Made by a program: the position numbers and the translations under genes | Shown here: positions 9,553-60,678 of the stretch, piece after piece | Layout: each line of letters begins with the position of its first letter | Numbering within the stretch: the stretch's first letter is position 1 | NCBI GenBank assembly: GCA_029378245.1 | Contig: JARKIF010000144.1 | Location: forward strand, 1-64,000 | Source of the DNA: Roridomyces roridus | Lineage: Eukaryota; Basidiomycota; Agaricomycetes; Agaricales; Mycenaceae | Direction of reading: 5' to 3' | DNA: 64,000 nucleotides | Notes under the pieces: generated by a model | Told to the model about the DNA's origin: nothing | The model's input: the letters and a program-made list of their open reading frames with translations, nothing else | The model's database searches: none

Positions 9553-10084
9553 CTATTTCTGAAGCTTCGTAACGACTCGTGCAGAGAATCTGCCCCCTCC
9601 CGGAATTGCACCGTCGTCGAAGCCACTGATTATTTTCTGGACAGCGGGATCGCTCAAGTACTGTGAGGGACGTCATGAGATGATTTTAGACCGCAGTGGC
9701 AGATAAATGTACCTCCAAAAAATCTTCCCGAGTCTGCCACAAATCAACAATTCAAGTATCCCAAGCATATGCATCGACGGCGTACATACCCGGGTGTCGA
9801 CGATGATGATAATGATGTCCTCTTGGATGGCCGAATCGATTTGGGTGAGGACTGCGTCACAGTCGGTCGTTGACATGCACTGGGAGCGAGGTTTCCGTTA
9901 GCAGCACTAGAAATTGAAATCAGTAACCTACAATCTCATACTTGATGATGGTTCGCTGGGCAACGGGGAGCGCGACGAGAGCATCCACGTTTTTTTGGTA
10001 CTTTGCCTCGAATTCTGACCGGGTGAGGTGCGCGGGCCGTTTGTAGACTCCGAAGCCGCGGAATGGACTCTGTGTGGTGGACAT
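9553..10084 (-). CDS. Small dimeric alpha/beta-barrel-like protein, tandem copy C
   Basis: Starts MSTTQSPFRGFGVYKRPAHL at 10084. The later exons give CMSTTDCDAVLTQIDSA, microexon TRGDFLE/TREDFLE type (here TREDFLE), and a final exon ending at the TAG at 9553-9555. Exon phases match copies A and B, so the gene looks intact. It is the most upstream member of the array on the minus strand and is separated from copy B by the hAT MITE. The same fold inference applies (EthD-like dimeric barrel), with unknown substrate. Confidence 0.7.
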
Positions 10085-11245
10085 ATGTTAGCTGGGGGAA
10101 TGCTGGGGATCGTAAAGTTCATGGTGGTCGTTATGTACTCCAGGTGGTTGACACCATCAATGGTGGCGAAGACAGTCAGAGTTAATATACTCCTGTCAGG
10201 CACTCATGGCCAGGGTGCATGAAGTGTGGCGTTTATGCCTATCATTCAGCCCTGCTCGACGGTGGTGCAGAGGTAGAGTGAATTTTCCAATCAGCACCGT
10301 GTGTCGTGGATTCAATATTCAACCAGCTGAAATAAATCAATTTGCGTGACCTTCCTAAGAAATTGGGAGAGTGTGGATCATTCCCAACTTGAAGATGGGG
10401 CACGCCCCCGCCACCGGGTACTTGCCACTAAGGTCGCCGACGGGTTTGAAGGCCGCCGAGGAAATTTGAAGGCCGCCGATCATGCTATCTATGCAACTTG
10501 AAAATATCATACAGCTCCGAGTCCACCAAGTTCAAGTACAGCAACTGTGCGCCAGGCCATTAAACAATATGGGCCAATGGACGGAGTTAGTGAAAGTTGC
10601 ATGCACCAGTGTATACACGGTTGAAGTGGAATTCCACACGGATTATGCAGGAGTTGAACTCGGCTACTCAGTCGGCTACTCGAGGGTCTCGGAAACAAAA
10701 TGAATGCCTTTGACATGGCCAGTTGCATTGTCATCTGACAACCGTGCATAACTGACCGGCGGTGGTTTAAGTTGAATTCACACCCCAGCGTGATAGGAAT
10801 ACATATGACATAGCACTGTCGGCGGGATTAGGTCTGCGAGGATGTTCAGATAAGTATTACGGGAACTTGACGAGTAAGTTCTCGTTCTTTTAAATTATAG
10901 TGAGGCCAGATCTTGAGCAAGGGGGTGGTTGAGTTGAAAGAAACACGCGAAGTGCCTCCTGAGAAAAAATCTCACCGCAGAAATTGGAATCCTTCCGGAG
11001 AAGAACCCTCGGGAGATTCGGTGTATATCAACCTTTCTTGCCTTCGGGGCCTTCACAACCACAGTGGTTCGGTACTTGAGCTTCCAAGCTCTCAACAAAC
11101 TCTTGTTTCAACCCTTGGATGGCAAATACCCGGATCAGATGATGCGACAGATTACATGAGATGATCCACCAGTGTTGTGCCATGTTTATCTGCGCCTTGT
11201 CTCTTCCTCTGACCCCTGATTGAATCCACACCAAAAACCCTCACC
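10085..11245. other. Intergenic: duplicated flank of copy C plus about 600 unmatched bases
   Basis: Holds the copy C promoter region (GAGTACATAAC near 10130-10142) and the repeat partner of 8040-8480. The 10310-10920 insert has no inverted ends or ORF that I can support. Confidence 0.5.
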
Positions 11246-14200
11246 ATGGCGTCCCAGAAGCGGACCATCCGTGTCGTATTCGAGGATGACTCCGCTGGCA
11301 GCGACCGCCCGCCGAAAATACGCAAAACAGCGGTCAGGAGGAGCGCTCCCTGACAACCTTTCTTGACCGATCTTTCTTTAGATTTCCATCCATGCGGACG
11401 CCACCAACGCAGAGCTCGCCAAGGAGATCGCTGATACCTTCAACCAGTCGGCAGGAATTAGGATGGAAATCGACGGTGGCTTCAAACTTCGCCCACAAGA
11501 GTGCGTACGGGTCTGCTTACCGTTCCTCATCCAACTCATGTTTTCAGCACCATCGATGTTATCGAGCCGAATTTCATTGTTTCAGCTCGCGTATGTGCGC
11601 CTCCGAGCCCAGACGTCGGGACAGAGTGCGTCCGCGTTTCCCGACCGGTTCCCTCTCTAACTGGCGAGCCTTCAGCACCATCGATCTCATCGAAGAGGAA
11701 ATCGTCTCCGATCTGCTAGATTCGTCAAGTGCGCCTCCATTGAAGCAAGAACCGATAGAAACCAAGGCCGAGCATCAGGATATGCCCTTGGACACCCCGG
11801 ACGCCATCGAGCGCTACAAAATCGGCTTCATCACCGCAGACCATGCCATCGCTCACGCCAAAGGGACCGCTAAAGAGCAGACTGAGGCCACGAATGGGGT
11901 ACTTGCATTCGACGGGGAGATGATAAGTGGGAACACGACCCTGGTGCGTGGACTTCCGTCGCATTCCAGTGAAAAACCTCATATGCTGCTCAGAGCGACC
12001 TCGAGCGTGAGGCTGCGCGTGTTCTCCAGTGGTCTTCATCCGATGATGCCAGTATGAACGTCGACGAAGTTCCGTGCCACCACGACGATTTCGCTTGTAG
12101 CTGCTCCATCTCCCAGAAACTCGAGAAAGACGGGATTTTCGACACACTCCACTGCCGTTTCACCCGTGATGGTTCGGACTGCATGCTGGATGACTGTCCC
12201 TACTCACACAGCAAGCTATTCGGTGCGTGTTGCATGCTTGCCGCATTGGCTGTGACTTGACAAGCACCCAGATGTCCCCGATGCAAAGTCCTCGACTTGC
12301 TCGCTGTGCGAGGAGGATCTCAGTGAGGAATGTCCGTATCAACTCGACTCCTCTGATCTTTTCTAGCCTCCCCTTGCCACCGTTGTGTCACTAGCAAGGA
12401 GGAATTCTGCCCTTTAGTCCAGGTACGCTCCTGCGTTGACTATTTTGGCCACTTTCGTGAGATCGTTCACAGAACGCCGGGTGTGGCCATCTACACCACG
12501 CGCACTGCTTACGCTCAGAGAGCGACCTCCGTGTCGCCCGCTGCCCGGCCGGCTGTCCCGTCCAACGTTTCCCGCGCGAGGCCGTCGACTTTGGCACGAG
12601 TGAACCGCACCTCATCATCGTCTGGGACGGCGATAAAGTCGACAGAATTCCAATCCAAGTTGATGGCGTCGCCCCGGGTGCGCCCATCATACTCACTGCC
12701 GACAAGACCGTCGAACTCGTGGAGGCGTTCCTCGAAGCAAGAACGACGGCGCTTTCCAACCTTTCTTTGCGTGTTCATTCAAGGGATCCTAAGACGAAGT
12801 ACCTTGTTCTCTTCCTCCATCGTACCTCCCGCTGATTCGCTTTCCAGCACGGTACGCTTCACGCACTCGGCTCTGGTTAGCGTCTGTCCTCTGTCGAGTC
12901 ACCTTGATCAAGGAAACCGCTTCATGCCGCTTTTCCCTGTCAAGGCCTTTGAGGCTGCTGACAGACAAACGAGTATGCCGCGGTCCACGGGATCTGGATT
13001 CAAAGTCGACCTACACACGTCGGGTGCTCCGATCATAGCCTGCGGATGCGTGTCCATTCGACAACTCCTTTCATCAAGCACGGTCACAGCCACGGGGACC
13101 ATCTGGCTCTACGCAGTGAAACGCACGCTCCCGACCGGCAATGGGGACGCAGAGCAGGATAAGGATAAGAAGCATTCAGCCTTCTTGGACGATGCGGCGT
13201 GGCAGCCGAGCGTTGAGCAGACACCGCGCGGGATGGCGGCGCTTCTCTCTTCCTTGTTTTTGTTCGGGAGTTCCCTGGATCCAAAGGGGGATGGGCTGCG
13301 GAAAGTCCTGGCTGCGGCGTTTGCAGTGCTGAGGTTCCCTCCTGCCATCCGAACGAGTACGTTGTTCTTCTTTTTTTCTTGACGCGGCACTGATTGGAAT
13401 TGGTAGTGGCTGCACTCGCTTCGAAAAAGGTCCCGAGACAAGAGGAGAAGGCGGCGCTGGCCGAGGTTCTGTATCAGGCGTTGGGGGCGTTTTCTTCCAG
13501 AGGACCAGCGGCTATTGTTGGTCGCGATTCGCGCCGTTTCGAGACGGTGAGTGGAATCTCTGTACTGAATTTGTTCAGCTAACAGTGTTCTAGGTCCGCA
13601 TTTTGTTGGCCTATTTTGCGAGCGCTGCAAATGCCGATTCCGGCGTGCCGTCCGAGCCACCTTTCGAGGACGTTCCTCTTGAATGCGAGCTATCGCGTAA
13701 ACGGCTCCGCGATCCAGTCTCCATGAACGACGACAATGTCGAGTGGGCCGTTGCAGCTCTTTATCAGCCAGGCGGCGCGTTGTTCCGCCCCGAACGTGTC
13801 ATCTCGGTGAACGACTTATCAGCCCAAGACTCCTCGATCATGAACCTCCTCCCATCCATACCAGCCCTGAACGCACCCACCGCCCTCCTCCTTCGCGTAG
13901 CTGCCATCGGGTCTGCGCCGCCCGCGTTTATCGCCACGCTCGACTCTGCCGCCCGCGATTTCGACGCGGCAATTCGGCGCGCAAATCAGACGGATCTGGG
14001 GAGCCATGGGCCGTTGGATCTCAAGTCTATGGATGTTGTCCCGCCTTGTATCGTCGTCGATCAGCAGGTATGCTGTGTACTCTCACCCCAGTCCGCTTCT
14101 GATCCTCCCGTACTAGGGTTGTTGGCCGTCTTCACCGGCCGTGGGTGTGGGGCGAGCCGTGATGTGAATTTCTTCCGTCCAACGTGCGTTTGTTCATAGG

Positions 14201-17200
14201 CATCCTGCTCCTATACCCACGTCTCACACAGGAATGGAGGCGACAAGGAGGTGAACGTTAATGAAGTCAGCCACGCTTTGCAAAACGTTATCAAGGCGCG
14301 TCAAGCGGAGGATACTTGGCAAGTAGATAGTTTTGACGGGGTTGTGAGTCTCTCGCGCACGCCGGATGAGGTGAGTTGAACTCTTTTGAAATCGTCTGAC
14401 CTCGAACAACACTGATTGCACCGTGGGTAGGCCATCGTCCTGTGCTTGGATCTAAGCGAATCCATGAGTGCGAAATCGGGGGTCGTTGGGTCCTCAAACT
14501 TGGATAACGATTCAGACGACGATGCCTGTGACGACGAGGCTCAGGAAATCGCTGCGCGATGTGTTGAAAGTCTGGACTACGATGAAATTCTTGATTCAGG
14601 CCAGACTCCTTCGACTTGCCTGTACTTTAGTTTGATCAATTGGTCCGTTCAGCCAAGACATATTTACAGACGCTTCATCGCGAATGTCATTATCCAAGGC
14701 TCACTCTCGCTGACCGTTCTTACCCGCGTGGGGAGGGACTTCTAGAGAATCTGACCACTCTGGCGTCGAGGGAGCTCGTTGACGCGACGGAGGAGGACGA
14801 CTCTGACATGGACCAGTCGAAGGTATACATTCGTTATCTTGTAACCTCGGCGTTGTTCACCAGGTGTTCCAGCTTGCGTGTTTCGTCTCAGCGACAGGCG
14901 ACTCTGAGCAGAGGGAGGATCTGCGACAGTACCTCTTGATGGCTCAGATATGGATAACATCGGGACTGCACCTTTCGATGTTCCTCGAAAGTTTGTCGAT
15001 TTCAGGTGAGAGCTTCATTCTCATTGCGTGTGCGTCCAGGAACTGAACGACCGTATGACCAGCACGGGCGAACTTTTGACTGATCCCGTTCTTCCTAACG
15101 ATGCCCCGCACGGAGTGTTTGTCAATGTCGGCGTTCGCTCGATACTGGATCAAACCCGTTGGCCGATGGGGCACATTGTGCCGTCGGGGCAAACGGCGTC
15201 CCAGCTGAAGAAGGCTGTTGCGGCTTGGGTACGTGATTGTCACTGATTCTAAAATCAACCCTCACATTCTCTTAGGTTGCGGGTAAAGACCTTTTACCTC
15301 GCAAACAAAAGAGTCTCATCGACGTGAGCCCGATTCACGGCGGAGAGACGATCACCTGGCACCTCCTGAAGAGCACGACGACCCGGACGCTGTATGCTTT
15401 GGCCCATCGCGCCACGTCTGCGAAATACTCGATCTTTTCCCTCAGAATTTCTGGTGGCGTGCTCAGCACCACGATCCAGGACTCGTCTATGTTGACTTTG
15501 GGGCAAGTCTTGCCAAACGGCGGACTCGTCGTCATGGCTCAGCACATTCCGCACAAGCGTGGCACTGTGACCGTCGAGATCACCACCCATCGCCCTCCTC
15601 TTAGATTGGTCCTCCCCAAGGAATCTTCCTCGGGTTTGCTCGTACTCAGCTATGCTGCTGTCTATGCCGAAGACTGCGCAATGGATGACACTATGATTTG
15701 GTCCGAATCACCTTCTTTTCATTCCACGCGTCCATTCACCGGTTTGATAGGTATGATCTTCAGAAATCCGATGGCTTCCGCCGCGGCAATGTCTTGGAGC
15801 CTCAACAGCCGCTCAAAATTACACAACAATATTTGCCAAGGAACGCGATCCAGTTGGAGTTGTCTCCGTGGCGCCCGACGAGCGGCGCTCGTCGGGCTCG
15901 GCGTGAGAGCCGCCATTTGACGCGCTTGGAGTTATTGAAGGAGTTGTTCAATGTTTTTTTGAATCGCGCGGTAGGCTCTGTTGTCTTGTGGTGAGAGTTT
16001 CAAGCAGCTTATTCGTCTTAGGGCTCTTTTGATACCTCCGTGTCTTTGGTCCTGGGGCTCGTCACGTGTGCGTGGTTTACCCCTCTGTATTCTCCAAGCA
16101 ATATCCGATGACTTTCTCCCAGTTTCGAATTATACCTCGGTGGACCAAGAGCTCACGCCCATCTTTGAGAACTTCCGGGAAAAACTCGAAGACAAGGACG
16201 CCTACGGAGAGACCGCTGTATATGACGCGCTCGATTCGGCGAGGCGCGTGCTAACAGAGTATCGACCTGACCTGCCCAAGCTCCGCAAACGTATAATCAT
16301 CGTCTCAGACGGGGATGATACCAACTCGCGGATATCAGCGCCGGCTGTCTGCTTGGCTCTACAACGGGCTGGCATTATCGTGGATTCGGTGCAAGTCGGT
16401 CCCACTAGCGATCCTACGTTGCGCGCTATATCCGTTGCGACTGGTAGGCATGGCGTTCTGTCGGGTGCTCTTGCTGACAAAATCACAGGAGGCTATCGAT
16501 TCTCTCCCAATACCTCTCTCGGGGACGCACTCAGTATCTTCGTACGTGTCGATTCTTCCATAGAATTCAATATACTCATTGGAGTAGGACCTCGAAACCA
16601 TGTTGTACTCTGCCGAACGTCCGCCTCGCGAAAACGAAGCGAAAGCCGAATTGCTCTCATCCCGCGTTCCGCTGAGCTTTTATGCGAATAAGCACAGCTA
16701 CCCCATCGACCCGATTACTGTCGACCGGTTCCCTCCCCGGGCGCTTCATCCACGGTTCAAACAGAGGGTCAAGGCGGCTGAGAAGGTTACTGGGAGGGTG
16801 GGTGGTAATGACCGTGTGAAGAAGATTATGCGCGAGGTGAGCTGCGTTTGGATGCCTGGTGTTAATGGCTCACGTTGCATTGAAGATCAAAGAGATGGTG
16901 GTGACACCTCATAAAAACATCGACCTCTACGTCGTCGATGGCGATATGTCGTTCTTGAAAGCCGTTATTGAAGCACCGAACGGAATTGACTGCCCGTACA
17001 GTGGTGGCACTTTCCTTGTTACGTGCAACCTGCCAGCTGGATATCCGCGCGACGCTCCGGAGGTGCGATTTGTGACTACCATCATGCATCCGAACGTGAG
17101 TGGCTATCTATTTTTTGGGTCCACGGCAACTCAACCCAAATCAATACAGGTCTCTAAACAAGGCAAAGTAAGTCGTCCCCCGCGTTTTTAAAGGCCGCGG

Positions 17201-17505
17201 TGACTCATTGACCGCAGGTTTGTATTGCGGAACTGGGGCGTTTGTGGCAACCCGAAATTACTTTGAAGGAGATTTTCCGCCAGGTGTATGGAATTTTGCT
17301 GACGCCTGACCTTGAAAATCCGCTGGAGGTTCAGAATTCCTTGAAGTATTGTGCGTGCGCGGCTTCTGGGTATCGCTGCATTTGACTGACTCTTCGCAAT
17401 TCGGCAGACGAGGACGATGGGTCGTATGCGATGGCGGTAGCGGAAGCTACCAAGCGGCATGCTTCGAAGAATCGAGCGCAGTGGAAGGAGGAATTAGATG
17501 GCTAA
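11246..17505 (+). CDS. Giant ubiquitin-system fusion: Ubl, RING-like, vWA, U-box-like and C-terminal E2 (UBC) domains
   Basis: Many exons. Exons 1-2 (11246-11332, 11382-11500) encode a ubiquitin-like start (KRTIRVVFEDD, IRMEIDGGFKLRPQ). A Cys/His-rich part (11994-12222) is followed by a RING-like zinc site (CSLCEEDL..CHRCVTSKEEFCPL..CGHLHHAHC..CPAGC; 12272-12560). A vWA domain opens near 14430 (CLDLSESMS, the DxSxS metal site) and closes at 15920-16690 (IIIVSDGDDTNS). Between its halves lie a U-box-like segment (LLTDPVLPN..LKKAVAAWV, 15060-15235) and a second ubiquitin-like region (15360-15600). The end (16870-17505) is an E2 fold: the HPN motif, an 18-base microexon at 17150-17167, then GKVCIAEL, with the catalytic Cys codon at 17221-17223. 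E2s pass ubiquitin to substrates, and RING/U-box domains normally recruit E2s, so one chain may hold both activities. Some joins (12810-12950, 14140-14230, 16060-16110) are unresolved; two neighbouring genes cannot be fully excluded. Confidence 0.75.
11548..11590 (+). other. Candidate alternative exon (paralogue of the exon at 11676)
   Basis: Begins CACCATCGATGTTATCGAG and follows a TTTTCAG acceptor. The next exon (11676-11898) begins CACCATCGATCTCATCGA and follows CTTCAG. Each can follow the phase-2 exon ending at 11500, and each ends in phase 0 so as to join the exon at 11994. Using both in a row would break the frame. They therefore look like mutually exclusive exons, or one live exon and one dead copy. 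Confidence 0.45.
15873..15897. repeat. Perfect 11-base hairpin inside the coding sequence
   Basis: GCCCGACGAGC, a three-base spacer, then its exact complement, within the exon before the second half of the vWA domain. Confidence 0.7.
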
Positions 17506-38477: not shown

Positions 38478-39815
38478 TCACAAATAATTTTTACGTTCAA
38501 AAAATGAACCAACGTATACTTGCACCCCCTTCTCGATAAACCCTCTCATTTCGGCCCGTATCTCTGGTGTGAGCTCGGCATACACATCCCGTCCATCCTC
38601 AGAACTGGAAGTGACGTTCCACAGGAAGGAGAACGAAGAAATATCATGCGATCGCGCGCACAACGCTCCTAGAGCATCCAATATTCGCAAATAATGCGCA
38701 CGAACTCCGGGATAGACTGCGCCAATGGTAAGACAACGGATCTTGGGAAGAAGACCGGTTCCAATGGCTTCAACCAACGAGCAATTGAAAGCAGGATCCA
38801 CGGAGAAAAGATGGAGCTCGACGACGTTGGGGATGAGGGCAAGGAATTGTTCCGGAGTTACATCTTGAAGCTCCATTATCATGTGCAGGCAGCGCAACGG
38901 GTGGGACGAACGAGTGAGAAAGTCGGAGAACGGCTGGAACTCGAGATCGCAGCTCGCCATCGTAAGATGCTCCAACGCCGGTAAAGTGAGGTACGACAGC
39001 ATATTAGCGCTGCTGGAGCTGACGTCTACACCCGGAAACCTGCCGAGATGAAGGTGAGGGAGGGTGGAGTGGGTGAAGATGTGAGGTGGGGGATTTGTGA
39101 AATCATTGATCTGGACAAGTCGGCACTCGACCAGATTCGCAGCTGCGTTGAGCATCCGAATGAATACTGTGGCATCTTGCTCCCAGCTGTCTGACCATGG
39201 ATACTCGTCGGCTTCGTCGTCCGAGTCGTAGTACCACTGATTTGCGCGCGCGAGCGTCAAGTTCGTCATGGAGGAGAATGTCCGCAACGCTACTGTGGCG
39301 CCAAGATCCTCAGGGGAGGATAGATCGAGCCGCAAAGCCTGTATCTGCTCTGCACAACCGTCCACCACTTCGAGGACGCGCGGGGTGTGCGTCTCGTGTC
39401 CTTTAAGGGAAAGTGCCAACGGTCGGCCGCCCGCACGAGAGATCCAGCTTTCTACCATGGAGTTGTATCCTTCCGAGTTCATCCTGTCGGTGTCGACAAT
39501 GAGCTCGGTCCACAGCGCTGGTAGCGTCTCGGCGAAGTGCCTCCACGAGTGGCAGACGTGCAGGAGGGCCAATGGTGCCACTTGAAAGTCGACCGTGCGT
39601 TGGTCAGGGAGACACCGCAGAAAAATGGCCGCTATCAACTCTGGTGGAAATCGTTGCATGGGATCGAGGAGATCGTTCAGTTTCCTTTGTGCGATATTCC
39701 TCTGTTGCTCTAGGTCGCCCTGCGAGTCCGGGGATTGTTGGTTCGGGAGGGATAAGAGACCGGAGAGCTTGGATAACTGCTCACGAAGGGCAGTCGCTGT
39801 CGTGTTCGATGCCAT
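38478..39815 (-). CDS. F-box-type protein 1
   Basis: One exon of about 445 residues from MASNTTATALREQLSKL at 39815; an in-frame ATG at 39917 is less likely because paralogues begin close to this helix. A coiled N-terminal helix is followed by an F-box-like motif (LDPMQRFPPELIAAIFLRCL) and the C..W.H.A...P.LW pattern (HVCHSWRHFAETLPALWTEL). After that come leucine-rich segments (LTLPALEHLTMASC, LRCLHMIMELQDV). F-box proteins link substrates to the SCF ubiquitin ligase. The C-terminus (VQVYVGSFFERKNYL) matches that of F-box protein 2 (MRIYIGTREKNLL). Confidence 0.85.
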   Translation of the reverse strand: MASNTTATALREQLSKLSGLLSLPNQQSPDSQGDLEQQRNIAQRKLNDLLDPMQRFPPELIAAIFLRCLPDQRTVDFQVAPLALLHVCHSWRHFAETLPALWTELIVDTDRMNSEGYNSMVESWISRAGGRPLALSLKGHETHTPRVLEVVDGCAEQIQALRLDLSSPEDLGATVALRTFSSMTNLTLARANQWYYDSDDEADEYPWSDSWEQDATVFIRMLNAAANLVECRLVQINDFTNPPPHIFTHSTLPHLHLGRFPGVDVSSSSANMLSYLTLPALEHLTMASCDLEFQPFSDFLTRSSHPLRCLHMIMELQDVTPEQFLALIPNVVELHLFSVDPAFNCSLVEAIGTGLLPKIRCLTIGAVYPGVRAHYLRILDALGALCARSHDISSFSFLWNVTSSSEDGRDVYAELTPEIRAEMRGFIEKGVQVYVGSFFERKNYL

Positions 39816-40226
39816 TGGAGATGGGGAGTGGCAACGATGGTGGAGGAAGAGAACAAAGAATGGGTGGGATGACACCGTACACTTGCCGTACACGAGGCAC
39901 CGAATGGCCATGACCAAGTAATCAGCTGGTCATGGGCTCTTGAGTCTTGCAGGACAACGGTAACTTGAGGCCAGGTGAGATGGTCGATTCCGAGGTCAGG
40001 CAGTACCCCCGGGGTTCATGGATGGAGCGGGGTGCGGCGAAGATGAGTACTTAAGGCTGATACGGATCACAAACGATGAAGCACCAAACAAAGACGCCTC
40101 TTGGACCCAACTTTCATCTTGGACTTGATTCAGAGGCTACCAGGTGAGCTAAGCTTTCAATTTTTCCTCTGCCATGAATAGAGAGGCAACTCAAGTCCGC
40201 ACCCATTAGACTTTTAACCAAAAACC

Positions 40227-41527
40227 ATGTCGTCTGCCCACGAGCTTTGGGCGCGTATCGCGCAGATTTCCGACTCGATAGAGGGACATAAACAAGCTAT
40301 ACGAGACCTCGAGATCCAGCAGTGCGCCATCAAAAGCGAACTCAACACCGTCCTCGATCCCATGGCGCGTCTACCATTCGAGATGGTTTCCGACATCTTC
40401 TTTCAATCCACTCCGAACGCAGAGGCTGCCTCCGTACTCTTGGCTGTATGTCGCAGCTGGAGTCATATCGCGCTCGCAACGCCGTCTCTATGGACTACAA
40501 TCAGCAACCTTGGAGTCCCAGATGCCGCATTTACGAACTTGCTTTTCTCCCTGTGGCTCCAGCGGGGGCAGAACCTCCCGATATCCTTGTCCATGGGTCC
40601 CTGGAAAAAGTTTTCCGACCAAGACATCGACCTCCTCGTTCCCTGCTTGCATCGGCTTCAAAAGCTGGACATCAGCATCGACTCGGAAGGCGACATGGGG
40701 TACATTCCATATCTGCATGGCTTCCCCATGAAGGCCTTGACCCACCTGACGGCTCACGCGATGGGCGAGGCGGAGATCGATCCGAATCACCCAGAGGACC
40801 TGCTTGACATCATGCGCAACGCACCGAATCTCGTGGAATTCGACATGTATCGAACCTCCCTTGATCGATTGGCAATGGACTTTCGAGGCGTTCTCACCCA
40901 TACGTCCCTCCGAGACCTCCGTTTCGGGAAACTCGAGGACGGCGATGGAGGGCTCTTGAACGCCTCACCGGCGATGTTGTCCCAACTTACATTACCTTCC
41001 CTCCAGACCCTCCACTTCTTCTCTACCGCCATGCACTTCGAGGATATGGAGATGCTCCTCGCATTCTTGACCAGATCCTCACCACCTCTGCTCTCCTTGC
41101 AGTTCGGCTCATACCTGGGAGACGAACACGGCGAAATCATGGTCGCCTGCCTGCGCCTTGTCCCTACTCTCACCAGCCTCAGCGTCCTGGCCTTGGCTCC
41201 CGACCTCCTCGACATCTTGATCCACGCCCCAGATCTTCTTCCCGCCCTCGTAAATCTCAAGATCCGGGGGGACATTGGTGACCGGACGGAGTTTCCCCGC
41301 GTCTTGAGTGTGCTGACTCAGAGACGTACGAGTCTCCGAGATTTCCAGCTGCTGGTCATATACGAGCCGGCGGAAAAATTCGAGGGGTTCGAACATGTTG
41401 CGGTTGCGTTCCGTCAGCTCGCAGCCGAGTCGGGCATGCGTATCTACATCGGAACGCGCGAGAAGAACCTTTTAGGTATGTACGCTTTCCGCATTTGATA
41501 GCCTTCTATTGACGAGAGTCAGATTGA
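40227..41527 (+). CDS. F-box-type protein 2
   Basis: Starts MSSAHELWARIAQISDSIEG. A helix is followed by the F-box-like LDPMARLPFEMVSDIFFQST, then AVCRSWSHIALATPSLWTTI and leucine-rich segments (LTLPSLQTLHFF, FLTRSSPPLLSLQFG). The long exon ends at 41475 (EKNLL). An intron at 41476-41522 leads to a final exon with one residue and a TGA (41525-41527). Reading through the intron would end at 41498 instead. F-box protein 3 has the same last intron with a similarly tiny final exon, which supports this ending. The gene is divergent from F-box protein 1 across 410 bases, and likely acts as an SCF substrate adaptor. Confidence 0.85.
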
Positions 41528-41613
41528 AATTTCCCGCACAAACGTTGTACAGATAATTAGGTTAACTCAGAAACGGAGAGATGCAACATATTGTAATTAC
41601 AAGCGCGTGCGGC

Positions 41614-42959
41614 TCAAGCTGGGCGAGACAAATAGAATGAGCCCAGTAATGCGACGAGTAAAGATAAATACCTTGCGTCTTCTCGTGGTGCCAGTCACCA
41701 ATGAACACATGCATCTCTTGTTTGGGGTAGACTTTAAGGTCGCGAAGTAACACCTCGCATTTCCCTGGGTCCCCGGTGTCTGCCCTCAGCCGAAAGGACC
41801 GAAGTGAACCACGTCGCCTCTCGAGGACGTCGGACACGATGTGGAATTGCGAGAACGGGAAGCAGTGTACACAGATCGTGAGGTATCGAAGCTGCGGGAC
41901 GATATCCCGGGCGCAAGCGAAACGCTCGAACAACGTCGAGGTCGAGGTCTCTGGCTCAAATCGGATATCGAGCTGAGTGAGAGAGGGAAGGTGACGCAGA
42001 AGTTCTTCCAACCCTCCGATGTCATAATTGCTCCAGTTAAGCGAGAGTGACCGAAGAGGTGGGGAAGACCTGGCCAGAAATGATACGAAGTCGTTGTGAG
42101 GGATATCGGGGTTCGAGACGGCGAGGCTGCGGAGAGCGGGCAGTGTGAGATACTGCAAAATGACGGAATTAGCATGTCTGAATTGCTGCCTGTCGAATTG
42201 CCCGAGCTTCAGATGTCTCAAAGACACCATATTCAGCGGAGGAACGACCGTCCGTTCTGAATCTGTGTCGCCGTCTGAATCCGTGTCGCTGTCGTCGACG
42301 TCATGGAATTCGAAGCCCACCAAAGTGCACTCCTCCAGATTGGGCGCATGACGCAAGAGCTCCAAGAATCCGCCTCGGAGAGCGTATGCAGAATATGGTT
42401 CCGAGCCGAAGCACGTCAAGGTCTTGAGCGAATGGAATGGGGCCGTCAGGCTTGCAAAGCTGCCGCTCTTGAAAGGAAGATGCAACTCGAGCTTTCGCAG
42501 CTGATGCGCGTATCTCCGCACCAAGTAGGCTTCGCTCATCTGCTGCGACGGCCGCAGACTTAGTGAGATGGGACAGCCCTTCGCGCGGGTGGCCCATCTG
42601 TTGAAGAGCCTTTCGTGCCTCTTCGCCGTGAGCGGGCCTTCCTTGTTGCCGGCACCAATCGAAGTCCACAGATACGGCGTGGATAGAGCAATCGCGGTCC
42701 ATCCATGGCAGACTCGCACGAGCACGCCTGGTGCGTCGTCGGGATGGAACGAGGGAGAGCAGGGTAGGCTCTGTACGAAGATCTCCGAGGAAATCTCGAG
42801 CGGCAGGCGTGCTACGGGATCGAGGATGGAATTGAGCTGGCGGTGAATGGCGCTCTTTTGCTTGTCAAGGTCCTTGAGAATCTGGCGGTGTTTGTTGATA
42901 GCCAAGAAAATCTCATCGAGTTCAGCACGGAGGCCAGATTCTGAGTGGGCAGACGCCAT
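41614..42959 (-). CDS. F-box-type protein 3
   Basis: Starts MASAHSESGLRAELDEIFLA at 42959. A coiled helix (LDKQKSAIHRQLNSI) leads to the F-box-like LDPVARLPLEISSEIFVQSL and VRVCHGWTAIALSTPYLWTSI, then leucine-rich segments (LTLPALRSLAVSN, FLARSSPPLRSLSL). The exon ends at 41672 (HHEKTQ). After an intron at 41619-41671 the last exon supplies Ala and TGA (41614-41616). If unspliced, the frame stays open to 41562. Two of the conserved blocks (LARSSPPL) are near-identical in F-box protein 2, so the cluster arose by duplication. Confidence 0.83.
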
Positions 42960-43594
42960 CGAGGTCAGGAAGAAGAGCGGATATTAGATAAGCACTTAAG
43001 TTACATAACATGCTGTGCCTGCCACTGCCGGCTGATGTTAGCCGACTTCGTGCACTGCCCTGCCACTGCCACCAGTTGGCAGTCGCAATCCAACCATCAA
43101 GCCATGTTTCAGCCATCCGGGGTGAGGTCAAAGCGGACCGTTCGCCACTGGAGAGTGCGCTCGTAATCGCTGTCCGCAAGTCCGACTCGGAGCCAAAGTT
43201 TGTCGGCCAAAGTGCAACCTCGCATACCACCGATATATCTGATCAACTATCTTGAAGCTCTAACTTCGAGGTTTTCACTGTTTGCTAATAACAAATGTAG
43301 TAGCCCACGATGAGGATTTTGTGTTCACCGTCAACAATATCTTTGATCCAACTCAACCTGAGATTCATATTTCATCAAACACCGAAAATCCGGCCTGTTC
43401 ATCGAAATCGTCCTCAGAGCACCGTTCCCACTTCTGCCCCACTTTCCTCCGTGCGAGTTGACCTGATGAGCGAGTTCAGTGTTAGATATCCGTGTGCAGA
43501 GGAAGGCTGTGCACCTATACAAACACCTTTGAGAGTCGGACAAGCAGTTATCCACATTTCGAAAACAGCTTCGTCGCCTAGTACGATCGTGTCG
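42960..43594. other. Intergenic between F-box genes
   Basis: Short ORFs only. No gene seen. Confidence 0.4.
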
Positions 43595-50104: not shown

Positions 50105-50427
50105 TGTTGAATTTCTGGGCCTAGACTCCATCTAGACTCAACCTGGAGTCACGCCCGATTGAACGGACCTCCAATGTGTTTCACTCCATTCAACCTTTTA
50201 TCCTAACCTTTTATCCAACCATACCTCACATGGTATTGTTTCCACTCTTGCTTATTCACCAACCCTCTAGAGTCCTCATTGGCTAGACACCGCATGGACG
50301 GACTCCGCTCCCACATGTAACCTCCGTGCCTGTTTCAACCACTACAGTATATAAGGTAGTCTACCCTCTGCTGTATTCTATTATCATCTTCAATACATCC
50401 TTCCCTCTTCCCTCTTCTCTCAAAATA
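50105..50427 (+). repeat. copia-1 5' LTR
   Basis: 323 bases, TGTTGAATTT..CAAAATA. A TATA box (TATATAAG, about 50349-50356) marks the likely start region for the element's transcript. Confidence 0.95.
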
Positions 50428-50442
50428 GGTTATGGGCCCCGG
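50428..50442 (+). other. copia-1 primer-binding site
   Basis: GGTTATGGGCCCCGG directly after the LTR. GGTTATGGGCCC is complementary to the anticodon stem-loop region of initiator tRNA-Met, as in Drosophila copia, which is primed by a half-tRNA. Element 2 has the same string. Confidence 0.7.
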
Positions 50443-50570
50443 CCGTAACTGAATTCTCCCTCATCATATTGAACTTGTCTCTACCGCTCATCACTCTTCG
50501 ATATCACCCCCACCCGCGACGCTCAACTTCGCCTCTCGCACCACGCACCTAAGTTTGCATAACCCCCACG

Positions 50571-53500
50571 ATGTCTGACGCCACATCCTCCGCCTATCGT
50601 ATCCAACATCTCCTCGGAGAGGATAACTACGCAACTTGGTCAATCAAGATCACCGACCAGGGCCTCATCGACTACGTCGATGGCACGAAGCCCAAACCCG
50701 TACACACCACCGACGCTGATGGTAAGGTCGTTGACCCGAACGGCGCCGTTGCCGCCGCCATCACCATCTGGGAGAAGAAGGATCGGCAAGCTCTCTCCCA
50801 GATCCGTCTCCGCGTGGCAGATGATCCGCTGGTATACATCACCAACGCGGCATCTTCTTCGGCTGCATGGAATACCCTGGCCAACAGGTACCAGCCGAAA
50901 GGTGTGATTGCCGTTGTTCTACTCCGCCGCCAACTCTTCCGCATCCAATGTGAAGAAGGCACGGGTGTCGAAGAACACATCCGCACTCTCACCAACCTGC
51001 GTACCCAACTCGCTTCCCAAAAATCCGCCCTCTCAGAGTCTGAATTCTCCATCACCCTCCTCACGTCCCTGCCCGACTCGTGGGACACGTTCATCTCGGG
51101 TATTGATACCACATCTCTTGATGATTCATCCAAAATCGTCGCACGAGTACTCGAGCAAGAACGTCGTCGCAAGGCTAAACCGCTGTCTGACGAGGTTGCC
51201 CTCCCGGCACGTCAACAGAGGAAGCCTAAATTCGCCAAATTCAACTCCAACGCCACTTGCTACGGCTGCGGCCGCGTTGGGCACATGATTGGTGACTGCC
51301 GCGACACTCAGTCTGGCAAAACCTTCACAAAAGCCGACAAGGAGAGGAACGCGCGCAAATCCAAGGCGCGTTACGAGAACAAAAACCATTCGGCTCACGT
51401 CGCCGAGGACGTTCAGGATTACACGTTCATGGCGCGCTCCTCCGCCGAGCCCGCGCTCGTACCCGGTTGCTGGCTTGCTGATTCCGGCACCACCAAGCAC
51501 ATTCTCAAAAACAAGGATTTTTTCGACGCGTACACTGCGACTCCCAACAAATCCGTGGTTGGATTTGGGAGCACCCCGTGCCTCGGAACCGGCACCGCGG
51601 CCATCGCTTCACACGTCAAAAATTCTACATACGAGATCGCGCTTAAAAATGCCCTCCACGTCCCCGATTCTCCGTACAATTTGATTTCCATCGGTCTCAT
51701 GGCCGAGGCTGGTTTTACAATCAATTTCAAGAAGAATTTTATGCACGTTCTCGACCCCAGAGGCCGAGAAATCATGCGAGGCATCAAGTCCGGCAATCTA
51801 TACATTGTCAAGATCACACGATCTGTCAAACGCCAAACCGTCTCCGTTGGCTCTGCCTTCCCGGCAACTCCACCGGCTGTACCACCAGCTGCACCTCCCG
51901 TCGTGCCAGCTGTCCCTGCTTCTACGGCATCCGATCCGCCGTTGTCGTCCTCCCCGACCCCGCCCGTGGCTCTCGCAACGATCCCCACGCACTCCTGGGA
52001 CAAGTGGCACCGTATTCTCGGCCACATCTCGCCAGCATCCGTCAAGATGCTCAAGAACCATAGCATGGTTGAAGGGATGAACGTGGACCCTTCCAGCAAA
52101 ACCTCCACTCAATGCCTCGCTTGTATCAAGGCCAAATCCCACGTCCAGCCTTTCCCACCCGTTGCTACGCGCGAATACACGGAAATCGGGGAGATGACGT
52201 TCACTGGTGTCTGGGGACCCAGCCGCATCAAAGGAATCAACGGCCAACGATACTACATCTCGTTCACGGATGCCGCCAAACGTCGATGCATCATCGCCTT
52301 CATGAAAGCGCGCACCGAAGTTCTCGAGAAAATGCAGAACTACGAGGCTTACATCCTCACTCAGACGGGCAAAGTCCTCAAAGCCGTGCATTGCGACAAC
52401 GCCGGTGAATACCTTTCGCCGGAGGCGCGCAAGTGGTTTGCTTCCAAGGGTATCAAACTTGAGCTCACTGCCGCCTACTCTCCTCCATCCAACGGCGTTG
52501 CCGAACGGCTCAACCGCACTTTGCTTGAGCACGCGCGCGCCATGTTGGCTGCTCGCAACCTGCCACTCTACCTCTGGCCCGAGGCTATCGCATACGCCAC
52601 CTTTCTCAAAAATCGGTCACCCACTCGCGCACTCGGGAATTCAATAACTCCCGACGAGGCCTTCTGGGGCAAGAAACCCGACTTTTCCTCGCTGCAGGAG
52701 TTTGGTCTTCCATGCGAAGTTCTTGTTCAAGACAAGAGTAATGCCAAGGTCTCCGTTAAAACGAAGGGTTGCATCTTCATCGGCCTTTCTGACGAGTCGA
52801 CCGCTTGGCGTTATTACAACACCGAAACACGCAAGATCGGCACTTCGCGCAATATTGCATTTATTGAGGACGGCATCAACTCTGCATCTATCCCTCCGCC
52901 TCAGCTCCAGGGGGAGACAGATACATCGATTTTGGACCAAGAGGCTCCGGCACCTCGAGTTGAAACCGCGCAAGTTGAACAAACTACAGCGCCGTCCACA
53001 CCCGACGAATCAACTGTGCCCGCACCAACGCTAACTCCACCGCCCGCAACTACTCCACGTACCAAGGCGCCGCGCGATATCAGCAGCGACATCACCGAGG
53101 ATAACATCATCCAAGGTACTCGCACCCGCCGAACTGCACCACCTGCCGCCGCATTCGTGGCTACCGATCCTATTGCCAACGACCCTCTCACCGTCTCCGA
53201 GGCACAATCTCGGCCTGACTGGCTTGATTGGAAAAAGGCTATGGACGAAGAAATGGCTCAACTCGGCGCCCTCGGCACGTTCACTCTCGCTCCGCTGCCT
53301 AAAGATCGCACGGCCGTGGCCTGCAAATGGGTTTTCCGCACCAAACGTGACGAACAAGGCATCATTGTTCGGTACAAAGCTCGCCTCGTCGCAAAAGGAT
53401 TCTCCCAAATTCCTGGCGTTGATTTCGACGAAACATTCGCACCCGTTGTTCGCTTGGAGACTATCCGACTTCTTCTCGCCCTCGCCGCACGCTACAATCT

Positions 53501-54722
53501 CGATATACACGTCGTAGATGTGATCGGCGCGTACCTCAACGGCAAACTCGACGAAGAAATCTACATGCAACAGCCCGAGTTTTATCGCGACGGTACTACC
53601 CTCGTCTGCCGCCTGCACAAGGCTATCTACGGACTCAAACAGTCCGGCCGTGTCTGGAATATCGAACTCAACAAGGCTTTTCTTTCCAAAGGCTATGTTC
53701 GACTGCTGTCCGACCAATGCGTCTACATCAAACGCGACGGTGATAATATCACCATCGTCGCTGTACACGTTGACGACATGACGATTCTCGCATCCAACCC
53801 CGCTCTGATGGAGGCTGCCGAGAACGAAATCGCCTCGATGTTTTCCGTCAAGAAACTCGGCCAGATACGCCAGCTTCTCGGCATGGAAATCACTCGCGAG
53901 CCGTCTGGTTCTATTCTGATTACTCAGAGCCAGTACGTCGCCAAAATTCTGGAACGTTTCCAGATGGACCACGCCAATCCTGTCTCTACTCCCATGGATC
54001 CGCACGTCAAACTGGTCAAACTTCCGGAGGACGAGCATCACCCCGATGTCAAACGCGTGTATCAGCACATGGTTGGTTCTCTCATGTACGCCGCCATTAC
54101 TACTCGCCCGGACATTTCCTTCGCCGTCCAAACCCTTTCCCAATTCAACCTGAACCCCGGTCCTGTTCACCTGACCGCCGTCAAACGTGTGTTTCGCTAC
54201 CTACGCGGCACGATTGATCTTGGTATCAAGTACCGTCCCGGTTCAACTGCCGACATCGAATTATTCTCCGATGCCGACTGGGCTAATTCTCCCGACGACC
54301 GCCGCTCCGTCACTGGCTACATCTCCTTGCTTTCAGGGGGAGTCGTGACTTGGAACTCGAAGAAACAGCCCACCGCCGCCCTTTCGAGCATGGAGGCTGA
54401 ATACATGGCTCTCGCTTCAGCCGTGCGCGAGACTCTTTGGCTCCGCACCATCCTCACCGAACTTGACTTTGCTCCTGTTCATCCCACGCACATTTCAGTC
54501 GACAATCACGCCGCCATCTCGTTCGCACACAACTCCGGCTTTCACGCGCGTTCAAAACATATCGACGTCCGCCACCATTTCATCAGGGAGAAGATCACTT
54601 CTAGCGAAGTATCAGTCTCGTACTGCCCCACTGCTGAAAACATCGCCGACATGTTTACCAAAGCTCTCGACAAGAGCAAGCACGAATACCTCGTCCCTAA
54701 ACTCGGCATGGATCGTGCTTGA
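50571..54722 (+). CDS. copia-1 Gag-Pol polyprotein
   Basis: One ORF of 1,383 codons. Order: Gag with a retrotransposon gag fold (IRLRVADDPLVYITNAASS) and zinc knuckle CYGCGRVGHMIGDC near residue 230; aspartic protease WLADSGTTKHI near 300; integrase with HRILGH..CLACIKAK zinc site near 480-520 and the core HCDNAGEY..SPPSNGVAERLNR; reverse transcriptase with VHVDDMTILAS near 1065; RNase H with DADWANSPDDRRSVTGY near 1235 and SSMEAEYMAL. Integrase before reverse transcriptase is the copia order. Full length without frameshift or stop, and its base composition matches host genes. Gag would form particles in which the RNA is copied. Potentially autonomous. Confidence 0.96.
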   Translation: MSDATSSAYRIQHLLGEDNYATWSIKITDQGLIDYVDGTKPKPVHTTDADGKVVDPNGAVAAAITIWEKKDRQALSQIRLRVADDPLVYITNAASSSAAWNTLANRYQPKGVIAVVLLRRQLFRIQCEEGTGVEEHIRTLTNLRTQLASQKSALSESEFSITLLTSLPDSWDTFISGIDTTSLDDSSKIVARVLEQERRRKAKPLSDEVALPARQQRKPKFAKFNSNATCYGCGRVGHMIGDCRDTQSGKTFTKADKERNARKSKARYENKNHSAHVAEDVQDYTFMARSSAEPALVPGCWLADSGTTKHILKNKDFFDAYTATPNKSVVGFGSTPCLGTGTAAIASHVKNSTYEIALKNALHVPDSPYNLISIGLMAEAGFTINFKKNFMHVLDPRGREIMRGIKSGNLYIVKITRSVKRQTVSVGSAFPATPPAVPPAAPPVVPAVPASTASDPPLSSSPTPPVALATIPTHSWDKWHRILGHISPASVKMLKNHSMVEGMNVDPSSKTSTQCLACIKAKSHVQPFPPVATREYTEIGEMTFTGVWGPSRIKGINGQRYYISFTDAAKRRCIIAFMKARTEVLEKMQNYEAYILTQTGKVLKAVHCDNAGEYLSPEARKWFASKGIKLELTAAYSPPSNGVAERLNRTLLEHARAMLAARNLPLYLWPEAIAYATFLKNRSPTRALGNSITPDEAFWGKKPDFSSLQEFGLPCEVLVQDKSNAKVSVKTKGCIFIGLSDESTAWRYYNTETRKIGTSRNIAFIEDGINSASIPPPQLQGETDTSILDQEAPAPRVETAQVEQTTAPSTPDESTVPAPTLTPPPATTPRTKAPRDISSDITEDNIIQGTRTRRTAPPAAAFVATDPIANDPLTVSEAQSRPDWLDWKKAMDEEMAQLGALGTFTLAPLPKDRTAVACKWVFRTKRDEQGIIVRYKARLVAKGFSQIPGVDFDETFAPVVRLETIRLLLALAARYNLDIHVVDVIGAYLNGKLDEEIYMQQPEFYRDGTTLVCRLHKAIYGLKQSGRVWNIELNKAFLSKGYVRLLSDQCVYIKRDGDNITIVAVHVDDMTILASNPALMEAAENEIASMFSVKKLGQIRQLLGMEITREPSGSILITQSQYVAKILERFQMDHANPVSTPMDPHVKLVKLPEDEHHPDVKRVYQHMVGSLMYAAITTRPDISFAVQTLSQFNLNPGPVHLTAVKRVFRYLRGTIDLGIKYRPGSTADIELFSDADWANSPDDRRSVTGYISLLSGGVVTWNSKKQPTAALSSMEAEYMALASAVRETLWLRTILTELDFAPVHPTHISVDNHAAISFAHNSGFHARSKHIDVRHHFIREKITSSEVSVSYCPTAENIADMFTKALDKSKHEYLVPKLGMDRA

Positions 54723-54729
54723 GGGGGAG
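54722..54729 (+). other. copia-1 polypurine tract
   Basis: AGGGGGAG directly before the 3' LTR, overlapping the end of the ORF by one base; the plus-strand primer site. Confidence 0.85.
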
Positions 54730-55041
54730 TGTTGAATTTCTGGGCCTAGACTCCATCTAGACTCAACCTGGAGTCACGCCCGATTGAACGGACCTCCAAT
54801 GTGTTTCACTCCATTCAACCTTTTATCCTAACCTTTTATCCAACCATACCTCACATGGTATTGTTTCCACTCTTGCTTCTCTAGAGTCCTCATTGGCTAG
54901 ACACCGCATGGACGGACTCCGCTCCCACATGTAACCTCCGTGCCTGTTTCAACCACTACAGTATATAAGGTAGTCTACCCTCTGCTGTATTCTATTATCA
55001 TCTTCAATACATCCTTCCCTCTTCCCTCTTCTCTCACAATA
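54730..55041 (+). repeat. copia-1 3' LTR
   Basis: 312 bases, identical to the 5' LTR except for the 11-base gap and one A/C difference near the end. Confidence 0.95.
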
Positions 55042-55850: not shown

Positions 55851-56140
55851 TGTCAGAAGCTAGATAGCACGGCACTAGATAGCACGGCAATGCGCAGACC
55901 CTCAGTCGTCGTAAGAGACAAAAGACTGATATATTAAGTACCTAGATAGCACGGCAATGCGCAGACTACATAGACACTCGTAAGTATGTTAGATACATAA
56001 GAAAGAGATAAAGGCACATACCCCTCAGTCGTCGTAAGAGACAAAAGACTGAGGGACACGTGTCGATGGCGTGGACGTGGGTAAGGAAGTGGAGAAGCCG
56101 GGTGTGAAGGCCCGGGGCGGATGATAATCAACTTTTGACA
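55851..56140 (-). repeat. copia-2 3' LTR
   Basis: 290 bases. It contains two copies of CCTCAGTCGTCGTAAGAGAC and three of AGATAGCACGGC-type repeats. Confidence 0.95.
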
Positions 56141-59100
56141 CCCCCACTCGACCCCGGCCGTAACCCCATAGCACGACAGAATTTGATATGTTTATCGTGC
56201 GGAAGTGCTTTGGTGAAAATGTCAGCCACCATTTCATTTGTGGGATACCACAAGACGATTGCTTCACCCGTTGCGACGAGACCATCGCGAACATAGTGAT
56301 ATTTGCGCTGAATATGCTTTGTTCTAGCGCGGAATTGAGGATCCTTGGTGAGGATGATAGCAGCTCGATTGTCACAGCGAAGTTCTGTGGGATTTTCCTG
56401 CTTGTGTCCAATCTCCTCGAAGAAGGAGCGCAACCATGCAAGATGTTGACCTGCATTTGCAAGACCAATGTATTCACTCTCTGTGGAGGACATGGCAACC
56501 ATGCTTTGGCGTCGACTGGACCATGAGATGGCACCGTTGTTGGAGATGAACACAAATCCAGAGGTGGATTTGGATGTATCTGAATCTCCATTCCAGTCAG
56601 CATCAGAATAGCCATGGAAATGCATGTCTAAACCAAAAGCAGACCCGTCGTAGTGTAAAACCCAGTCCCGTGTGCCCTTGAGATATCGCAGGGCACGTTT
56701 GAGAAGAGCCCAGTGACAAGCTTTTGGGTTTGCACTATAGCGTCCAACCATCCCAGTGATATGTGCAAGGTCAGAACGGGTTCCAAGCATTGCCCACATG
56801 AGCATGCCTACCACACTTTGATATGAGAGGACAGGACCATCGGCACGGAAGGACATGTGTGTAACTGTGCGGTCATTATCTGGGTCAGTCTCAGAGGTGT
56901 TGGTATTGGTAGCCATAGGTGTTCTGACGGGGTCACAGTCAGACATTCCACATCGCGCCAAGACAGAGTCAATATACTGGTGTTGAGAGAGTGAAAGTGT
57001 ACGCTTCTTGCGATCACGATGGATGTTCAATCCCAGGATTTGCTTTGCAGGGCCCAAGTCTCGCATTTTGTATGATTGCCTGAGTTTCTCCTTGATACGA
57101 TCCATGAACTGGCGTGAAGTACCAGCAAGAAGGAGATCATCAATGTAGACAACTAGGAAGCAGAGCTGTTTGCCTTCTTTGTAGATGTAGAGGCAGGTTT
57201 CAGAGGAACAGCGAGTAAAATTCATCTGGCGAAGAGTTTTGTCCAGAGTCCGGTTCCAGGCACGTCCAGACTGGTGTAAACCATATACAGAACGATTTAG
57301 CTTCCAGCAGTAACCCGAGGTGATTGAGACGCAGGATGGAGGCATCATGTAGACATCCTCTTCAAGCTCACCGTTGAGATAGGCGGTTGAAACATCCATT
57401 TGATCAAGCTCCAAGTCATACTTAGCTGCTAGTGCACAAATGATGCGAATAGATTCCAAATTTGCCACAGGGGCAAAAACCTCTTGGTAATCTATGCCTG
57501 CACGCTGAGTGAAGCCTCGAGCAACAATTCGAACTTTGTAGCGCTCAATCTCTCCAGCCGCATTGAATTTGACTTTCAACACTGGCTTAGATGTTATTGG
57601 GGTGACACCTTCTGGAATGGAAACCAATTCATAGACTTTGTTTGCGATGAAGCTCGCTAGTTCTTCATCCAGTCCAGCCTGCCATTTATCCGCATCAGGT
57701 CCATTCATCGCCTCATCCCAGCTTTTGGGGATGTGGGAATCAACACCATCACGAGCTAAGCCAGCAAAGAACTCTATGTCTTCAGGATCAACCACAACAT
57801 ATGTTCCGTCCTCTTCCTCAATCAATTCAAGATGTTGGGGCTGAGGTGGAGTAGAGGGAGACTGAGCATCTGTTTCCTGCTCTGGGGTTGATGCTGGTTT
57901 GGACCGAAGTTGCTGTGGCTTTGCAGCTGCTTGCTCATAGACGGCATTTGGGTGAGTAGCCGCAGTGCGCTCTCGACTTGTACGTCTGGGAAGTAACTGA
58001 GGGACATCTGGCAGAGAAGGTTGTGGTCTAGGATGAGTTTCTGAGCGTGGAGGATCAAGTCGTACACCACCAACTCGGCGCAATGGTGGCCCGGATGGTG
58101 CAGAAATTGATTCCTGTTTCACGGACTGAGAATCTGAAGCCCCCACTGGGGAAGAAGTCTGAGGTACCCCCACTGAGATTGATGATTGCATATTTCCTGG
58201 AGCTACAGGAATTTCGACAATTTCATCAGAATCATCAGTGTCAAAGTAAGGGGTGTTACTTTGTTTGAGACCCTGGGCAAAGGTCTCGAAATCTGCTGTA
58301 TGCTGCAGGCGAGGTTCAGAGGGATCTTGAACTTCCTGAGGAGCAGGTGAGCTCTCATTGAATTTGACATGTCTAGCAGTGATAATTTTTCCGCTGTCAA
58401 GATCCAAGAGATCATATGCGGCTTTTCCTTCATGATATGCAATGAAGACGGTACGCTTGGCATGATTTGCAAATTTGCCTTTGCGTTTCTTCTTTGGGAC
58501 AAGAGGATAGGCTGGGCAACCAAATGGATGCATGTGATTGATATTCACAGGACGATCATAGGCACTTTCATAGGGAGTTTTCCCATTCTGTGCACTGGCA
58601 GGAGAACGAGCAACAGTGTAGACAGCATGAGACATTGCAAGGTCCCAATATTTTCGTGGGAGATGGGAAGCAGCTAGATTGGTAATAGAGCAAGTAACAA
58701 GAGTTTGATTCATTCGCTCAGCCATGCCGTTCTGCTCTTCTGTGTATGGGGCAGTGGTTTCATGTATGATACCACGTCGACGAAAATCATCCTCCATTTC
58801 TTTCGATGTAAATTCGCCCCCACCATCAGTTCTAGTGAAACGGTTCCATCCAGCACAGAATTCCCAGTGTCCTATGTGTGTTTGAAAATGCCGCTCTACA
58901 AAGTGACGCCACTCCTTGAGTTTTTTATAAACTTGGGACTTCTTGCGAGCAAAGAGAACCCAGGGCAATGATGTAGCATGGTCCACAATCACAATCCAAT
59001 AGTGATAGCCGTTCACACTTTGGGGACTGACAGGTCCTCCGACATCTGTTGAAATAATATCTAGAGGTCCACGTGCAACAGTTCTGCTACGCTCAAAAGG

Positions 59101-60243: not shown

Positions 60244-60388
60244 TGATAGTTATCGATAAGAGTGCGAGTAGGTGTGTAGAATGTGGGGGAGAGGGAGTAG
60301 TGTGTCCTGCGAGGAGCACTTGAGTCTTGAAAGCCTGAGGGTGCTTGAGAGGTAGTCCGGCAGCTAGAAAGCACCGGGGCCCATAACC

Positions 60389-60678
60389 TGTCAGAAGCTA
60401 GATAGCACGGCACTAGATAGCATGGCAATGCACAGACCCTCAGTCGTCGTAAGAGACAAAAGACTGATATATTAAGTACCTAGATAGCACGGCAATGCGC
60501 AGACTACATAGACACTCGTAAGTATGTTAGATACATAAGAAAGAGATAAAGGCACATACCCCTCAGTCGTCGTAAGAGACAAAAGACTGAGGGACACGTG
60601 TCGATGGCGTGGACGTGGGTAAGGAAGTGGAGAAGCCGGGTGTGAAGGCCCGGGGCGGATGATAATCAACTTTTGACA
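60389..60678 (-). repeat. copia-2 5' LTR
   Basis: 290 bases. Against the other LTR it has CATGG for CACGG and TGCAC for TGCGC. Confidence 0.95.

Follow-up and report, generated by a model that had tools for sequence, protein, structure and literature searches.

E2 enzymes and E3 ligases are mostly separate proteins, the pairing of which must be discovered. BIRC6 and UBE2O are hybrid E2/E3 enzymes, very large single chains that act both as E2 and as ligase; neither is known to contain a vWA domain with a nested U-box or an Rbx1-type RING. Some fungal proteins may owe their label to the Mimivirus protein R795, a "probable bifunctional E2/E3 enzyme" with U-box, VWA and E2; no paper on R795 was found in open-access PMC, and no relative among viral contigs. 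Another comparison is with Mb_UBOXa, an old gene combining VWA and U-box that is described from Monosiga, Naegleria and other organisms and as absent from animals (Marin 2010, PMC3087547). Compared by description, this gene resembles the family analyzed here in that VWA and U-box are joined in one old protein of distant protists, but the passages of that paper describing Mb_UBOXa mention no E2 or RING (PMC3087547), whereas in the present analysis vWA, E2 and U-box came together in a brittle-star, a sponge and a fish protein, with the U-box after the E2.

The 90.8-Mb assembly of Roridomyces roridus (Mycenaceae) includes the 64,000-nucleotide stretch analyzed here (the window), in which the first-pass annotation had seen a single gene joining an E2 with E3-type modules and a split vWA domain. 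The E2-E3 fusion at 11246..17505 is confirmed, and relatives show the same order in one ORF. Proteins of Mycena, Favolaschia and their relatives, deposited as "putative bifunctional E2/E3 enzyme" or "UBC core domain-containing protein", have an identical plan, whereas the window copy (gene A) is broken. Compared with BIRC6 and UBE2O, the family has separate RING and U-box modules; we file it as a variant of the E2-E3 hybrid enzymes with putative ligase activity.

Gene A and its intact sister

Gene A spans 11246..17505 on the forward strand, exactly the limits given by the first-pass annotation, and consists, in our hand model, of 27 exons (11246-11332, 11382-11500, 11548-11625, 11676-11943, 11994-12222, 12272-12322, 12367-12422, 12473-12798, 12848-13356, 13407-13546, 13594-14067, 14117-14183, 14232-14370, 14431-14599, 14653-14822, 14873-15005, 15063-15228, 15276-15700, 15751-15970, 16022-16067, 16123-16443, 16489-16541, 16588-16836, 16886-17095, 17150-17167, 17218-17350 and 17408-17505). 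Introns are GT-AG in 25 of 26 cases; the remaining one, 14600..14652 (forward strand), is GC-AG, with GT-AG at the matching place in the sister gene B. Both haplotypes seem to be present in the assembly (window 9929-16517 recurs on contig C458 at 98.4%, and 40000-41500 recurs there with the identity printed as 100%), and the exons were checked against the other allele, gene B and P0046, the deposited model of the other allele of gene A. Only one residue differs from P0046 in the first 779, and the same modelling logic applied to gene B yields the deposited protein P0001 exactly. A dynamic-programming model, in which several exons were wrong, was superseded by the hand model; an intron at 14141-14199 was rejected on comparison with gene B, and the acceptor at 14873 was taken over that at 14864, since the AG of the latter is missing from the other allele.

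P0046 ends at 952 aa because it reads into the GC-AG intron, and it therefore lacks most of the vWA domain and the E2 of gene A; the public annotation of this allele is thus truncated by read-through.

Sister gene B lies on C458, 254 kb from gene A, and translates exactly to NCBI FB45DRAFT_1055980 (P0001), a single model of 1659 aa. In one allele of gene B (L017) the frame runs uninterrupted for 1659 aa and each of the 24 introns is GT-AG; the other (L016) shows 6 residue differences and a single AT-AG junction. This junction is at the end of exon 11, where the L017 allele has GT-AG, and the deposited protein lies on the AT-AG contig and is spliced there. The intact family gene in this genome is gene B, not the window copy.

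Domains of the chain and the predicted mechanism

A search with gene B, in which scoring covered the 7983 candidates with the most words in common, produced 51 matches, of which 45 carry UQ_con, 44 vWA and 3 U-box in the precomputed Pfam column; some are half-length models, and several of those lacking a domain are short or partial. The matches with a named organism belong to the Agaricomycetes. From these, 28 near-full-length members were picked that align with gene B, 27 of them at least 1573 aa long (P0048 has 1275 aa); they share the length, order and conserved residues of gene B. Conservation is given below as counts among these 28, and all coordinates are on the forward strand.

The chain begins with a ubiquitin-like beta-grasp domain (about aa 2-89; 11246..11625), followed by a CCCH-like zinc cluster, CxC..HC-x8-C-x4-C-x3-H (12096..12209), with the Cys and His residues kept in 27-28/28 and a weak match to Pfam zf-CCCH_2. 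The zinc site that had been called RING-like is a RING-H2 of the Rbx1 type, encoded in exons 6-8 (12298..12556), with ligands for the two RING sites and for an extra site; the 12 Cys/His positions are each conserved in 26-28/28. The ligand order is the same as in the RING-H2 of RBX1 and APC11, and the spacing is near-equal to that of RBX1. The ligand pattern was found in 38 of 115 proteins, P0046 among them. Pfam zf-rbx1 matches gene B weakly, below cut-off, but is above cut-off in P0073, P0075, P0078 and P0082, with E-values of up to 6e-16 in distant members (5.9e-16 in P0073, 3.9e-15 in P0078). Unlike RBX1 and APC11, fungal members have CxxxC as the last ligand pair, and a profile of six sequences matched solved structures weakly (RBX1 at E 0.7-4, other RINGs at 0.08, an unrelated protein at the top).

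Two segments resemble U-boxes. The first, a half U-box with the pattern C..S.KRL.DPV (13672..13800; C648 and P658 of gene B in 28/28), aligned at 9e-6 over 25 columns in hhalign, the best of 20 shuffles reaching 0.016. The second (14977..15228) is nested within the vWA domain. A profile of 23 members (the two Pfam-positive ones were left out, as were P0031, P0032 and P0048, which are too short there) matched the U-boxes of 13 relatives at 2.4e-8 over 71 columns in hhalign, compared with 0.019 for the best of 20 column shuffles. At the curated cut-off, the U-box profile found no match in gene B or in 26 of the 28 aligned members. Pfam U-box does match at the corresponding place in P0049, P0050, P0055, P0056 and P0058, and proteins of Jaapia, Laetiporus, Grifola, Parastagonospora and others are above cut-off there. 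Because of the above-cut-off matches at the homologous position and the profile-profile score, we regard the nested segment as a degenerate U-box by descent, which in mushroom members has lost much of its canonical middle.

The nested U-box is part of an insert of about 400 residues that interrupts the vWA domain, unlike the vWA domains of Rpn10 and Ssl1/p44. The first strand with the MIDAS motif DLSES is at 14431..14466 (D857, S859 and S861 of gene B), and the remaining MIDAS residues, T1333 and D1365, are at 15915..16541; all five positions of DxSxS...T...D are kept in 28/28. In a structure model, both halves fold together as one vWA domain, which bears out the two-part metal site described in the first-pass annotation; among solved structures, TFIIH Ssl1/p44 is nearest in fold, and proteasomal Rpn10 scores high as well. 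Gene B matches VWA_2 at 1.6e-7, above cut-off, and VWA at 2e-5; VWA_2 matched all 28 aligned members at E up to 1. Within the insert, 15276..15700 encodes a beta-grasp stretch (strand-strand-helix-strand in the P0042 model). As to the two ubiquitin-like segments proposed earlier, the beta-grasp fold is supported, but PF00240 gives no match in gene B at cut-off; the profile is matched by the distant members P0058, P0065 and P0067, in the last of these at 1.4e-8 between the U-box and the second vWA part.

The E2 (UBC) domain occupies 16810..17499, with the HPN motif at 17087-17095 and the catalytic Cys codon at 17221-17223. The fold model, the motif and the Cys, present in 27/28, bear out the E2 assignment. 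In alignment with a Ubc4 structure, the Ala of its "SPA" motif is replaced by Asp in 26/28 and by Glu in the window gene, and the Asp that precedes Pro-Leu close to the active site is replaced by Asn in 25/28. Both positions would matter for E3 contact and lysine reactivity. The Asp in place of Ala may weaken ordinary E3 contact, and the changes at both positions may mark a dedicated rather than a general E2. Overall, the HMM check named in the first-pass annotation returned vWA signal in gene B, whereas the Pfam U-box, RING and ubiquitin models all remained below cut-off there. The RING, the first U-box-like segment and the nested U-box are absent from the VIA lists, which covered parts of each model, and this absence is no evidence against them.

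For the intact protein, given its domains and their order, the conservation of metal-binding and catalytic residues and the single ORF in relatives, the most likely mechanism is predicted to be that of an E2-E3 hybrid ligase in which RING and U-box act on their own E2 and the vWA domain docks partners. E1 would load ubiquitin onto the C-terminal E2 cysteine; the RING, the U-box or both would stabilize and discharge the E2~ubiquitin, in the same chain or in the partner chain of a dimer; the vWA domain would dock a partner via its metal site, perhaps a substrate or the proteasome; and the beta-grasp domains would keep hold of ubiquitin, set its orientation or have a regulatory role in the chain. 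The degenerate U-box of mushroom members, the CxxxC pair of the RING and the Asp at the E3-facing position of the E2 could also indicate a pseudo-ligase scaffold, with degenerate E3 modules and an E2 that works with outside E3s only or receives ubiquitin. This we consider unlikely, given that all 12 RING ligands and the E2 Cys are kept almost throughout and that distant members have a canonical U-box and an Rbx1-type RING with good scores. The hybrid ligase remains our preferred reading for the intact protein.

Probable decay of gene A

The full domain order is present in gene A, but the frame is broken there, and it is in gene B and the relatives that the order lies in an intact ORF. In the window allele, exon 12 (14117..14183, forward strand) is 1 base short when compared with the other allele, so that the frame is lost and ends with a stop after residue 795, ahead of vWA and E2; exon 16 (14873..15005, forward strand) is 10 bases shorter, a second frame loss. 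In the other allele, the frame is open into the last vWA exon, where 264 extra nt follow, and a stop comes after residue 1423 of the spliced reading. The exon of this allele holds a repeat of ~250 bp (L009:6602-6852, on C458), the inverted ends of which, by eye, are TGTTGGGA...TCCCAACA. Searching the genome with the insertion gave 40 scored matches, one of them the insertion itself, at 75-100% identity and about half of them full length. It is therefore a repeat, and its short inverted ends suggest a small transposon.

A tree built from 35 N-terminal regions joins gene A and gene B as sisters (support 100/99) and gives A a branch twice as long as that of B (0.61 vs 0.30). Counts between the two give dN 0.335 and dS 2.12 for the N part and dN 0.275 and dS 2.00 for the C part, consistent with mostly purifying selection since the split, the ratio being rough because dS near 2 is close to saturation. 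The window copy appears to be dead, broken in both alleles by different lesions; as assembled, it cannot make the self-contained ubiquitin-transfer machine suggested by the first-pass annotation.

If the length differences were assembly errors and the GC-AG intron were spliced, the window gene would be functional and make the full protein. The 1-base difference sits in a short run of T and could be such an error, GC-AG introns do exist, and the frame is open and conserved outside the lesions; but the 10-base difference is outside any homopolymer and surrounded by many other haplotype differences, the other allele is separately interrupted by the repeat insertion, and A evolves faster than B. 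A functional window gene is thus quite improbable. Gene A is probably a paralogue undergoing degeneration. Its family, an old one among eukaryotes, is that of E2-E3 hybrid ubiquitin ligases, the intact members of which would work by the putative mechanism given above. The locus then offers a clean case of a paralogue decaying by a different lesion in each haplotype while its sister is intact.

Spread and age of the family

Beyond the close relatives, a search with the C-terminal part of the Jaapia protein gave 12 matches, including itself, with an ascomycete among them. A search for distant members, with one of these 12 as query, yielded 58, with sources that include Symbiodinium, Alternaria, Cadophora, Amphiura, Oopsacas and several fishes; by hand tally of the precomputed Pfam column, 56 have UQ_con and 47 UQ_con together with U-box, 10 of these with zf-rbx1 as well, and P0114 and P0115 are without E2. 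P0073, P0075 and P0078 carry zf-rbx1 RING, U-box, vWA and E2 above cut-off in the order of the window gene, and P0082 has the same order with the vWA just under cut-off. P0067, a EukProt protein from a TRINITY transcript assembly marked "ORF type:complete", combines RING, U-box, ubiquitin and E2 above cut-off in one ORF; its vWA is in the precomputed column, with VWA_3 below cut-off in a direct scan. That a RING/U-box gene and an adjacent vWA-E2 gene, or a longer row of neighbours, had been mistaken for one would agree with the end of P0046 before the E2 and with the other half-length matches of gene B, but it is very hard to reconcile with the read-through that explains P0046, the single 1659-aa model of gene B, the near-full-length alignment of the 28 relatives and the single transcript ORF of P0067.

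The vWA domain is uninterrupted in P0059 and P0060, as it is in P0100 (sponge), P0093 (brittle-star) and P0105 (fish), where the U-box follows the E2. Six animal proteins, some from fish and uncharacterized (P0093, P0100, P0103, P0105, P0108 and P0112), have E2 and U-box, five of them with vWA, and RING was seen in P0105 and P0108. Putative animal membership rests on the common vWA-E2 core, and the placement of the animal U-box may reflect a rearrangement or a separate fusion. Pattern scans of viral_contigs (A2 and A6) gave 13 and 23 pattern matches, none confirmed as a relative; one prokaryote scan gave 29 pattern matches and no relative, and tblastn of P0073 against phages found none. No giant-virus or bacterial link was thus found in these collections.

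These searches indicate that the family consists of old eukaryotic E2-E3 hybrids and is not unique to this locus; it is already in databases, partly named "putative bifunctional E2/E3 enzyme". The order that had seemed unfamiliar among characterized proteins is that of an old family, although no functional study of a RING/U-box-vWA-E2 protein was found in the open-access PMC literature. More tentatively, and with the balance slightly against it, the family could be a class of one-chain ligases of ancient origin and patchy retention that has been overlooked. The Rbx1-type RING, together with the U-box set into the vWA domain, would then work in cis on an E2 that is fused and dedicated to them, and in animals the chain would be rearranged so that the U-box comes after the E2. 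Such a family would be a natural model of E2 and E3 working without a search for each other. With E2, RING, U-box and metal-binding docking domain kept on one chain across fungi, protists and some animals, the pairing would be fixed, and E2-E3 cooperation would become testable in one polypeptide.

Elsewhere in the window, three adjoining ORFs of 426-483 aa (38478-42983) resemble, by eye, F-box proteins of one local family, and the stretch 40000-41500 has more copies at 70-84% elsewhere. Two copia-type retrotransposons (type by eye from translation) with long open frames lie on opposite strands at 50191-54845 and 55860-60427; on either side of each is a short tandem repeat that matches its partner, and the two may belong to terminal repeats.
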